Source: Pseudomonadales bacterium (GTDB taxonomy: Bacteria > Pseudomonadota > Gammaproteobacteria > Pseudomonadales > Azotimanducaceae). Taken from it: a DNA stretch of 64,000 bases. Within the stretch, counting starts at the first letter, position 1. Each line of letters starts with the position of its first letter. The position numbers and the translations under genes were made by a program. The DNA lies in NCBI GenBank assembly GCA_028281005.1, contig JANQKS010000106.1, forward strand, positions 1 through 64,000, in the 5' to 3' direction. Of the stretch, positions 6,173-10,138 are shown one piece after another. A model generated the notes under the pieces. The model saw nothing but the letters and a program-made list of their open reading frames with translations, did no database searches and was not told the origin of the DNA.

Positions 6173-7135
6173 TTAAGCCTGATGGATCAACAATAAGTTG
6201 TAGCCCACCCAGGCCGCTAACATCACCATGCCTTCAAACCGGGTGATGACCGGCCTCGAGTTTATGCCGTAGGCAAACAACGCTAACATGACAGTCAACG
6301 CAAGCATCATGCCGCCGTCGCGCCATAATGCGCCCGGTGGAATCTCCGTGCCGCCGACCATGGCCGGCACCGCCAGCACCGCGAGAATATTGAGAATGTT
6401 GGAACCCACCACATTGCCGATGGCAATGTCTGGATGACCTTTGATGGCAGAGCCGATGGTGGCCGCCAGTTCAGGCAGGCTGGTGCCGACGGCAACAATG
6501 GTCAAGCCGATGATCATATCGCTAACACCCAAGTAACGGGCGATGGAGGTCGCGGAATAGACCAGCACTTGCGCTGACATCAGCAGCACCAGCAAGCCAA
6601 GCACAAGCCAAGCCGCGGCTTGCCAATTGGTCATGTCCGGTAGATCGTCGAGCTCCTCCTGCACGGATGCGGATAGTTCCTGGTCGTTCCCATCTTGGTT
6701 GCTCATTAATCGCCACAAGATGGCGCTTAAACCCAACAGTAGAAGAAAACCGTCAAAAAAGCCCAAGTCGCGGTCGAACATCAGCCCCATCGCCAGCAGG
6801 GTGGCGCCGAGTAGCCAAGGCAGTTCGGCTTGGCGTACCGGTTTGGAAAACGGCAAAGGGGCAACTAAGGCGGTGATGCCAAGTACCAGACCGATGTTGG
6901 CAATGTTGGAGCCAATGGCATTACCTACCGCCAACAGCGGATTGCCGTCGATGGCGGCAAACAGGGCGACCAGAAGCTCCGGCGCCGATGTGCCCACCGA
7001 CACCACCGTCAGGCCAATCAGCATTTTGGACACCCCTAGGTTCTGCGCGCAGGCAGCGGCGCCAGATAGAAATCGGTCGGCGCTCCATACCAAGGCGACA
7101 AAACCGACAATCAGTAGTAAAAGGGGAACCCACAT
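6173..7135 (-). CDS. CaCA-family calcium/sodium antiporter (YrbG-like)
   Basis: This is an inner-membrane cation exchanger of the Ca2+:cation antiporter superfamily. The 320-aa protein consists of two homologous halves with inverted topology, each with the signature repeat: VSVGTSAPELLVAL with GNAIGSNIANIG in the first half, and VAVGTSLPELAATI with GNVVGSNILNIL in the second. About ten hydrophobic segments are visible, and a hydrophilic acidic loop (about residues 140-170) joins the halves. YrbG homologues occupy this place next to kdsD/kdsC in many gammaproteobacteria. The ion transported is not proven. Confidence 0.92.
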   Translation of the reverse strand: MWVPLLLLIVGFVALVWSADRFLSGAAACAQNLGVSKMLIGLTVVSVGTSAPELLVALFAAIDGNPLLAVGNAIGSNIANIGLVLGITALVAPLPFSKPVRQAELPWLLGATLLAMGLMFDRDLGFFDGFLLLLGLSAILWRLMSNQDGNDQELSASVQEELDDLPDMTNWQAAAWLVLGLLVLLMSAQVLVYSATSIARYLGVSDMIIGLTIVAVGTSLPELAATIGSAIKGHPDIAIGNVVGSNILNILAVLAVPAMVGGTEIPPGALWRDGGMMLALTVMLALFAYGINSRPVITRFEGMVMLAAWVGYNLLLIHQA

Positions 7136-7218
7136 AGGTGTGTGATGGTCAGATTACAGCTATCAAGTGTCCTAGGAGGAGCACTTTAGTCTGATCAGAA
7201 GCTCCAGCCAACCGCTGC

Positions 7219-7242
7219 AACCCCATTAATTACGGGGTTTTT
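7219..7242 (+). terminator. Terminator-like hairpin before the mla promoter
   Basis: AACCCC and GGGGTT form a 6-bp stem around a 9-nt AT-rich loop, followed by TTTTT reading on the plus strand. No plus-strand gene ends upstream, so it may insulate the mla operon or end a short leader or antisense transcript. Confidence 0.5.
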
Positions 7243-7247
7243 AGCGC

Positions 7248-7264
7248 AATTGGTCTGACCAATT
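7248..7264. promoter_or_regulatory. PdhR/GntR-type operator palindrome
   Basis: AATTGGTCTGACCAATT is a perfect 8-1-8 palindrome and matches the known PdhR box pattern ATTGGTnnnACCAAT of the FadR/GntR family. It lies about 64 bp upstream of the mlaF -10. No GntR-family gene is in the window, so the regulator is inferred from motif similarity only. Confidence 0.5.
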
Positions 7265-7327: not shown

Positions 7328-7336
7328 TGTTATAAT
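7328..7336 (+). promoter_or_regulatory. Extended -10 promoter element for mlaFEDCB
   Basis: TGTTATAAT is a consensus -10 hexamer with the TGn extension, 39 nt before the mlaF TTG start. No good -35 is visible at the right distance, which is usual for extended -10 promoters. Confidence 0.6.
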
Positions 7337-7374: not shown

Positions 7375-8184
7375 TTGCAAGCCAGTGAACATCTGATCGA
7401 GATCAGAGACTTGTCGTTTCGGCGCGGCGACAGAGTAATTTTTGATGGTGCGGATTTCGATATTCCGCGCGGCAGAATTACCGCAATTATGGGCCCCAGC
7501 GGCACGGGCAAAACCACTTTGCTAAAGATCATTGGTGGCCAAGTTAAACCGGATGCCGGGCAAGTGTATGTGGAAGGCCAAGACATTTGCAGCATGAACC
7601 GTGATGAGCTGTTCGCCTTCCGCCGTAATCTTGGCATGATGTTTCAGAGTTCTGCTTTGTTCACTGACTTGTCAGTCTACGAAAACGTTGCATTTCCAAT
7701 GCGCGTCCATACCAATCTGTCGGAAGAGCTCATTCGCGACCTGGTCATGATGAAATTAAACGCTGTGGGATTACGCGGTGCGCGTGACTTGGCGCCGTCA
7801 CAGCTGTCCGGCGGTATGGCGCGACGCGTGGCGTTGGCGCGTGCGATTGCTTTGGATCCCGATCTGATTATGTATGACGAGCCGTTCACCGGGCAGGACC
7901 CGATTGCCATGGGTGTGCTGGTGGGTCTGATCAAGGAACTGAATTCAGCGCTTAACATCACCAGCCTGTTGGTTTCGCACGATATCCATGAAACCGTCAG
8001 CATCGCCGACCAGATCTTCGTGATTGCCGATGGCAAAGTGATCGGCGCAGGCACGCCGGAAGAACTACGCGCAGCCCCCACTCCCATGGTGCGCCAGTTT
8101 ATGCACGGTGAACCCGATGGTCCGGTGCCGTTCCACTACCCGGCAGACGACATAGAGTTTGATGTATTGGGCGAGGCTGGCTGA
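7375..8184 (+). CDS. mlaF: Phospholipid trafficking ABC ATPase MlaF
   Basis: MlaF is the ATPase of the MlaFEDB complex, which moves phospholipids between the inner membrane and the periplasmic carrier MlaC to maintain outer-membrane lipid asymmetry. The 269-aa sequence has Walker A GPSGTGKTT (about residue 42), signature LSGGMARRVALARAI, Walker B LIMYDEPFTGQDP and the switch histidine in LVSHDIHET. The start is TTG with AAGGTG eight bases upstream; no better in-frame start precedes it. It heads mlaFEDCB and continues past the start of mlaE by only 1 nt spacing. Confidence 0.96.
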   Translation: MQASEHLIEIRDLSFRRGDRVIFDGADFDIPRGRITAIMGPSGTGKTTLLKIIGGQVKPDAGQVYVEGQDICSMNRDELFAFRRNLGMMFQSSALFTDLSVYENVAFPMRVHTNLSEELIRDLVMMKLNAVGLRGARDLAPSQLSGGMARRVALARAIALDPDLIMYDEPFTGQDPIAMGVLVGLIKELNSALNITSLLVSHDIHETVSIADQIFVIADGKVIGAGTPEELRAAPTPMVRQFMHGEPDGPVPFHYPADDIEFDVLGEAG

Positions 8185-8185
8185 C

Positions 8186-8965
8186 ATGGTGGGCTTGGTG
8201 CGCCTGTTGGGCATCCGTTTTTTGACCTGGCTGAATTCTTTGGGCCGCGCCACGGTATTGTGGGCCAATGCCATGTGGTGGCTGCCTCGATGGGAAGGCG
8301 TCCGCCTGATTGTTACGCAAATTTACTACGTGGGTTTCTTGTCGCTGGTCATCATCGTGCTGTCTGCGTTTTCCATCGGCGCCGTATTGGCGCTGCAGTT
8401 TTATACCCAGTTGGCGCGCTTCGGCGCGGAGGATGCGGTTGGTGTAGGGTTGGCTCTGGTAGTGCTGCGGGAGCTTGGGCCGGTGGTGACTGCCTTGTTA
8501 TTTGCGGGTCGCGCAGGTTCTGCGCTGACGGCTGAAATTGGTTTGATGAAAACCACCGAACAGCTATCGAGCATGGAGATGATGGGGGTAGATCCGCTTA
8601 AACGCATCATTGCGCCGCGTATCTGGGCAGGTCTGATCAGTGTGCCTATCCTTACCGCTATATTTAACACCGTGGCCATTTACGGGGGTGTGGTCGTTGG
8701 TGTGAACTGGTTAGGCGCTGACCCTGGCGGCTTCTGGTCGGGCATGCAAGAAGGGGTTGAGATCTACGAAGACCTGGTGAAAGGTATGATCAAGAGCGCC
8801 GTATTTGCTTTGTTGGTCACCTGGGTGGCTGTGTTTCAAGGTTATGACGCCCCCCCCACGGCAGAAGGTATGTCGCTGGCCACTACGCGTACAGTGGTAA
8901 TATCGTCGGTGCTTATTTTAGCCACAGACTTTTTGATGACCCTTGTTTTTTACGGAGACTTTTAA
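8186..8965 (+). CDS. mlaE: Phospholipid ABC transporter permease MlaE
   Basis: MlaE is the inner-membrane permease of the Mla complex. The 259-aa product has about five to six hydrophobic segments and the family stretch LRELGPVVTALLFAGRAGSALTAE-like, split here as RELGPVVTAL and GRAGSALTAEIG. The ORF track begins at 8159 inside mlaF; the ATG at 8186, directly after the mlaF stop, gives an N-terminus that fits the family better. The stop overlaps the mlaD start by one base. Confidence 0.94.
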   Translation: MVGLVRLLGIRFLTWLNSLGRATVLWANAMWWLPRWEGVRLIVTQIYYVGFLSLVIIVLSAFSIGAVLALQFYTQLARFGAEDAVGVGLALVVLRELGPVVTALLFAGRAGSALTAEIGLMKTTEQLSSMEMMGVDPLKRIIAPRIWAGLISVPILTAIFNTVAIYGGVVVGVNWLGADPGGFWSGMQEGVEIYEDLVKGMIKSAVFALLVTWVAVFQGYDAPPTAEGMSLATTRTVVISSVLILATDFLMTLVFYGDF

Positions 8966-9423
8966 TGCGCATGCGGACCATTGAAATCAGCGTTGGCGGC
9001 TTTGTGTTGGCCGGCATCATTGCGCTGGTGTTCCTGGCGGTGCAAGTCAGTGGTGTGAATACCAGTCAAGTACAGGACAGTTATGCGGTGATCGCCCGTT
9101 TTGATGACGTAGCAGGGCTGCGTGCGCGGGCAAAAGTCAGCATGGCGGGTGTGACCATTGGGCGGGTGCGTTCGATCGATGTGGATATGCAATGGGGTGA
9201 TGCCATCGTCACCATGGACATTTTGGGTGAGCCGGGCAACTTAACCACCGACACCAGTGCCAAAATCCTCACCGAAGGCATCCTTGGCGCACGTTATATA
9301 GGGCTCTCCCCTGGAGCCGATGAAGAAACCTTGGCTGACGGTGATGAGATTGTGGAAACCCAAGGCGCGCTGGTGCTGGAGAATCTCATCGGTGATTTTT
9401 TAACGAACATAGGGAAATCCTGA
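8965..9423 (+). CDS. mlaD: Phospholipid-binding MCE protein MlaD
   Basis: MlaD is anchored in the inner membrane and forms a hexameric MCE-domain ring on the periplasmic side of MlaFE through which lipids pass. The 152-aa protein has an N-terminal membrane helix (GGFVLAGIIALVFLAVQV, residues 11-28) and one MCE domain with ARFDDVAGLRARAKVSMAGV and the lipid-channel region near ILGARYIGLSPG. Its ATG overlaps the mlaE stop codon, indicating translational coupling. Confidence 0.95.
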   Translation: MRMRTIEISVGGFVLAGIIALVFLAVQVSGVNTSQVQDSYAVIARFDDVAGLRARAKVSMAGVTIGRVRSIDVDMQWGDAIVTMDILGEPGNLTTDTSAKILTEGILGARYIGLSPGADEETLADGDEIVETQGALVLENLIGDFLTNIGKS

Positions 9424-9424
9424 C

Positions 9425-10138
9425 ATGTTGAAGAAGATATTGGCGGTGATTCTGATTGCCGCAACAACAGTGGGTGTTTTTGCAACGCCGCTGGTGTGGG
9501 CGTCGAGCACGGTAGAAAGTGCGGCTCGTTCGGAAACGGCGGAAGAGGCGGTCAAATTGGCCACCGACGAAGTACTGGCGCTCATCACCGCGGGCAAAGA
9601 CTACGCAGACGATGAGCCGGAACGTTTTTACAAGGAAGTGGAAGGTTTGCTGCGCCCCATCATTAATTTCCCGCGCTTTGCGCGCAGCGTAATGGGCCCA
9701 TACTACAAGGTGGCGACAGCAGAACAGCGGGAGCGCTTTGCCGAATCCTTTAAGTGGAGCCTGGTGCGTACTTATGCTCTGGCCCTCACCGAGTTTAGCG
9801 GGGGTGAGGTGAGTGTTTTGCCGCCGCGTCGCAAGCCAAAAAACCCTGACGTGGTCAATGTCACCCAAGAGATCAAATACGAAGGGAAAGCCTACATGGT
9901 GGTGTATCGCATGCGTCGCAGTGAGGCTGCATGGAGTGTGAGCAATCTGATTGTGGAAGGGATCAACATCGGCTTGAACTACAAATCCCAATTTGCCGCG
10001 GCCATGAAAGACCCCCAGTATGGCGGGGACATGGATGCGGTGATAGACGCCTGGGTGGATGTCATCGAGGCGGAAGAAGAGGCTGCAGACGAAGCTGAGA
10101 CCGCGGAGTCTGCGCCGACTCAAGCCACTTCGGCATAA
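9425..10138 (+). CDS. mlaC: Periplasmic phospholipid-binding protein MlaC
   Basis: MlaC shuttles phospholipids across the periplasm between MlaA-porin complexes in the outer membrane and MlaD. The 237-aa product has a cleavable signal peptide (MLKKILAVILIAATTVGVFA, cleavage near residue 26) and the Tol_Tol_Ttg2 domain with the conserved FPRFARSVMGPYY segment. It follows mlaD after a single base. The acidic, alanine-rich tail (about residues 215-237) is likely disordered. Confidence 0.94.
   Translation: MLKKILAVILIAATTVGVFATPLVWASSTVESAARSETAEEAVKLATDEVLALITAGKDYADDEPERFYKEVEGLLRPIINFPRFARSVMGPYYKVATAEQRERFAESFKWSLVRTYALALTEFSGGEVSVLPPRRKPKNPDVVNVTQEIKYEGKAYMVVYRMRRSEAAWSVSNLIVEGINIGLNYKSQFAAAMKDPQYGGDMDAVIDAWVDVIEAEEEAADEAETAESAPTQATSA

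Follow-up and report, generated by a model that had tools for sequence, protein, structure and literature searches.

In E. coli, MarA binds the mlaF–yrbG region next to the −35 element of mlaP2 and activates mla (PMC5684230), and in Klebsiella, RamA binds the mla promoter and activates it (PMC11792452). Fur affects VacJ/Yrb (Mla) in several species, possibly indirectly according to the authors of that study (PMC4737802). Regulated mla, as well as its coupling to RND efflux, is already known, and given this control by MarA, RamA and Fur elsewhere, the premise of an initial sequence-only reading of the present locus, by which Mla would be either constitutive or linked only to stress, is out of date. 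Neither a GntR regulator of mla nor a FadR-family regulator of RND pumps was found in the papers searched, which were largely open-access. Here we describe a predicted GntR-type operator in the yrbG–mlaF intergenic region of a 64,000-nt stretch of DNA, termed the window, which is likely the binding site of an efflux-linked regulator.

A palindromic site between yrbG and mlaF

The 17-base perfect palindrome AATTGGTCTGACCAATT lies between the divergent genes yrbG and mlaF, with no long open frame running over it on either strand. The features of the region are as follows, with the mlaF and yrbG promoter positions inferred from conservation only:

6173–7135, minus strand: yrbG, calcium/sodium antiporter, divergent from mlaF (PF01699, TIGR00367)
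7183–7211, minus strand: likely yrbG promoter, with −35 TTGGCT (7206–7211), 17-bp spacer and −10 TAAAGT (7183–7188)
7219–7242, plus strand: terminator-like hairpin AACCCC-N9-GGGGTT with U-tail (stem-loop 7219–7239; fold z −2.9), in this genome only
7248–7264, no strand: predicted palindromic operator AATTGGTCTGACCAATT, centre 7256, matrix score 27.0
7328–7336, plus strand: likely extended −10 of mlaF, TGTTATAAT (TGnTATAnT), conserved in position in most of the 10 genus members that carry mla
7375–8184, plus strand: mlaF, phospholipid ABC transporter ATPase, first gene of mlaFEDC (NF008809, 396.5 bits against a curated cut-off of 441)
8192–8965, plus strand: mlaE, in mlaFEDC (PF02405)
8965–9423, plus strand: mlaD, in mlaFEDC (PF02470)
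9425–10138, plus strand: mlaC, in mlaFEDC (PF05494)

The match to the E. coli PdhR box AATTGGTnnnACCAATT (PMC7660256) claimed in the sequence-only reading was borne out at 14 of 14 positions. The palindrome fits the E. coli LldR box AAnTGGTCnGACCAnTT (PMC10272880) equally and exactly, so that no regulator can be named from the motif by itself. The divergent arrangement was likewise described correctly, whereas a region "packed with inverted repeats" was an overstatement, as we found the palindrome and one good hairpin (7219–7239). Within the window, AATTGGTCTGACCAATT is the only match at up to three mismatches (0.17 expected), and its exact form occurs once in the 5.14-Mb genome. Scored with a matrix built from 26 gntR autooperators, from which the genome itself (G000) was excluded, the palindrome exceeded the training mean of 21.7, and the next-best site in the window reached 12.7.

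The GntR regulator at C36 and its predicted autooperator

A genome-wide search, notably at the regulator's own gene, had been suggested beforehand, and the proposal had been made to depend on a GntR/FadR-type regulator of this specificity being encoded in the genome. A candidate was found that carries the palindrome at its promoter: besides the copy at mla, the genome has one further TTGGTCTGACCAA core, about 80 bp ahead of a gntR gene (G000:C36:1377–2099) that is followed by genes for an RND adaptor, an RND permease and a MATE transporter. Palindrome and flanking half-sites span about 80–107 bp upstream of gntR and form an overlapping array with a 14-bp period. Six sites with up to two mismatches, a threshold at which weaker regulon members may be missed, were present in the genome, three of them in open frames. 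The three intergenic ones lie at mla, at gntR and at a second RND adaptor (C124), the last not conserved in 19 relatives. The same predicted operator is thus present at RND efflux genes and in the mlaF–yrbG region of one genome.

The autooperator was present in all 30 orthologous genus loci read, at a constant position and with one to three copies, mostly as a 14-bp-period array. Among the 75 relatives with enough upstream sequence in the named-genome collection, 71 carried a site with at most two mismatches over 12 positions, 67 with at most one and 17 an exact one, compared with 1/75 for an in-gene control of equal length. These relatives are mostly uncultured Gammaproteobacteria (e.g., the K189A clade and HTCC2143) and some Myxococcota, and, as judged from N-terminal sequence, the gene following gntR is RND-type adaptor-like in most of the 75. 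Together, this conservation pattern provides strong evidence for a predicted autoregulatory operator of the C36-type gntR family. For most orthologues the operator centre follows the first base of the −10 in the best −35/−10 pair by about 18–26 bp. The operators would then cover the predicted gntR start and the bases immediately behind it, an arrangement resembling that of a repressor and suggestive of autorepression.

The encoded protein of 240 residues contains an amino-terminal GntR winged helix-turn-helix (PF00392, 56.7 bits, cut-off 27), and its AF2 model (pLDDT 92.5) shows an all-helical FadR-type carboxy-terminal domain. A PDB fold search with this model returned FadR structures at the top, with TM scores by query length of 0.69–0.76, the value for the myristoyl-CoA form being 0.76. 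The DNA-contact arginines of FadR, R35, R45 and R49, are kept. The FadR equivalog models scored below their cut-offs (NF003444, 31.9/189; TIGR02812, 31.8/249.2 bits), and the protein is, as far as profiles and predicted fold indicate, FadR-like but no FadR equivalog. Based on the fold together with the efflux and lipid-transport targets we infer a lipid or amphiphile as ligand. The fatty-acid response proposed in the sequence-only reading may apply, given the closeness of the model to FadR, but the FadR ligand residues G216, S219 and W223 align to S, N and M, in a carboxy-terminal alignment that is itself weak at ~20% identity.

We also noted the same palindrome in other contexts. In seven small-genome relatives (G002, G017, G004, G014, G037, G021, G034; L310–L316) an exact TTGGTCTGACCAA lies between grpE and dnaK, 77–78 bp upstream of dnaK, with TTGAA and ATATA elements on its two sides. 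In several other genus members only GACCAAAT is retained upstream of dnaK, perhaps as a portion of a heat-shock −10, and the dnaK-upstream core may be an operator or a promoter element. In G062, from another family of the order, AATTGGTCAGACCAATT (L121:1501) precedes an open frame resembling, as judged by eye, an FMN-dependent alpha-hydroxy-acid (lactate) dehydrogenase, and the same palindrome may serve lactate control there. In G048, from another genus of the family, TTGGTCTGACCAA (L095:1501) precedes a superoxide dismutase-like open frame, again judged by eye.

Conservation and promoter architecture of the mla site

Ten genus genomes hold mlaF. The remaining 30 of the 40 genus members, mostly smaller genomes, had no MlaF at E ≤ 1e-80, suggesting that the mla system was lost in them. 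The best mla intergenic site scored 27.0 in G000, 27.0 in G025 and at most 9.7 in the eight others. In G025, ATTTGGTCTGACCAAAT occupies the equivalent mla intergenic region together with a half-site at 14-bp spacing, as at gntR, and none of 40 further family members yielded an intergenic match with up to two mismatches. The presence of the site in two of the ten mla-bearing genus members and in none of the 40 others indicates that the site was added within this lineage, two species having retained or gained it. Both belong to one clade with G003 and G007 (support 99), of which the inner order is unresolved. One-mismatch sites upstream of mlaF in G079 and G171 were rejected as operators, being yrbG codons for IGLT. 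A further conserved element, TGGTCTGA with a TGGTC half-site, was observed just upstream of the yrbG start (7136–7160) in about seven of the ten genomes, with a weak matrix score.

A sigma-70 scan of the region gave no consensus promoter. In the ten-genome alignment of the yrbG promoter, ACTTTAG is invariant and CCAAC nearly so. The operator centre lies 75 bp upstream of the mlaF TATAAT (TGnTATAAT at 7328–7336), at about position −87 relative to the predicted start; its distance upstream of the yrbG −10 is 68 bp. In G025 the two distances are 57 and 79 bp, respectively. With this spacing, mlaF is unlikely to be repressed by simple steric hindrance. The operator could instead act by activation, by looping or on an unseen promoter further upstream, or it could control yrbG; at mla, activation from upstream would be slightly favoured over repression.

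Alternative readings

A chance palindrome without function would fit its being missing in most relatives. Yet, by our own arithmetic, sixteen fixed bases in 5.1 Mb give an expectation of only about 0.001 exact matches per genome, and the recurrence of the exact core, 12 of 12, in the orthologous G025 intergenic region has a chance of roughly 2e-5, rendering coincidence extremely improbable. Almost as improbable is the view, hinted at in the sequence-only reading, that palindrome and neighbouring hairpin belong to a leader or antisense transcript, such as an attenuator or sRNA. The hairpin is real, with a U-tail on the plus strand, and both elements fold well as RNA (z −2.9 and −3.8), but the conserved mlaF −10 is located downstream of the palindrome, the region has no Rfam match and no consensus promoter, and the hairpin is absent from nine aligned relatives, including G025, which keeps the palindrome. 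A PdhR- or LldR-type pyruvate or lactate sensor coupling mla to carbon metabolism draws on the exact fit to both E. coli boxes and on one GntR protein of the genome (C111) that is nearest to NanR, LldR and PdhR. We nevertheless regard this as very unlikely: no protein of the whole genome reached the PdhR equivalog NF007001 (best 58.1 bits against a cut-off of 330, which 1 of 14 control genomes passed), the C111 promoter lacks the motif, and of the sites with up to three mismatches that were read in context, none was recognised as belonging to pdh or lld genes. PdhR was set aside as the binder on this score, and the pyruvate control that had been proposed is unsupported, the gene of the candidate regulator adjoining RND efflux genes. 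Among the GntR proteins C38, C59, C111 and C134, the upstream regions searched were those of the full-length C38 and C111, and neither has the motif; binding of the site by one of the four GntR matches besides C36 is a residual possibility.

The site could instead serve yrbG, the Na+/Ca2+ exchanger, and not mla. The operator is about equidistant from both promoters, and between the two species its distance to the yrbG −10 changes by roughly a helical turn (68 vs 79 bp), so that the phase to yrbG is kept and that to the mlaF −10 (75 vs 57 bp) is not, indicating that yrbG may be the target. We know of no precedent for co-control of yrbG with RND pumps. As the site occurs in two species only, however, the phase argument is weak, and co-control of mla and RND pumps does have precedent (PMC5684230, PMC11792452), leaving yrbG as sole target an unlikely although not negligible explanation.

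Proposed efflux-linked control of mla compared with known systems

Our preferred reading, which we hold with fair confidence on sequence grounds, is that the palindrome is a binding site of the C36 FadR-like GntR efflux regulator, and that mlaFEDC, perhaps along with yrbG, was recruited to its regulon in this lineage. The C36 regulator would repress its own gntR–adaptor–RND–MATE cluster from overlapping palindromes just downstream of the −10, as their position suggests, and mlaFEDC, perhaps with the divergent yrbG, would have joined recently via one site located some 87 bp before the predicted mlaF start. A putative lipid-like or amphiphilic inducer would then alter binding, shifting pump expression and phospholipid retrieval together. 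The sequences themselves establish the site, the regulator gene, the conservation of the autooperator and the reappearance of the mla site in another species; binding, its sign and the ligand are predictions. Actual control of mla by this regulator is probable, and the match to the operator of a conserved efflux regulator indicates that pumps and outer-membrane lipid balance are probably co-controlled.

More tentatively, at slightly less than an even chance, a conserved and undescribed FadR-like RND-efflux regulator of Gammaproteobacteria and Myxococcota, characterised by a gntR–adaptor–RND module and a 14-bp-period array, may have recruited mla in one lineage as an independent, lipid- or amphiphile-responsive counterpart of MarA/RamA. 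If so, coupling of efflux to phospholipid retrieval has evolved repeatedly through unrelated families of regulators, which would speak for selection on the coupling as such. The analysis turns an orphan motif into a testable regulator–operator pair whose autooperator is conserved, and it provides an example of a regulon recently rewired, as seen by comparing related species.

Compared with E. coli PdhR and LldR, the site shares the exact fit to the published consensus boxes, and the difference from PdhR lies in the lack of a PdhR equivalog and in a best candidate regulator that is efflux-linked. With E. coli FadR, the C36 regulator shares the fold, the GntR winged helix-turn-helix, the DNA-contact arginines, a TGGTC-type palindromic operator and the precedent of a dual regulator; it differs in its sequence (~18–20% identity), in the three ligand residues not kept in the alignment, and in its linkage to RND efflux instead of fad/fab genes. 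Fur likewise exerts transcriptional control of mla genes (PMC4737802), but is iron-responsive and belongs to another protein family with another site. Further counterparts are MarA and RamA acting on mlaFEDCB of enteric bacteria, regulators linked to drug efflux each of which also targets the mla promoter; MarA does so in the same mlaF–yrbG intergenic region that holds the operator predicted here. Those are AraC-family activators, with MarA bound next to the −35 of mlaP2, whereas the present candidate is a FadR-like member of the GntR family with its predicted site about 87 bp upstream.
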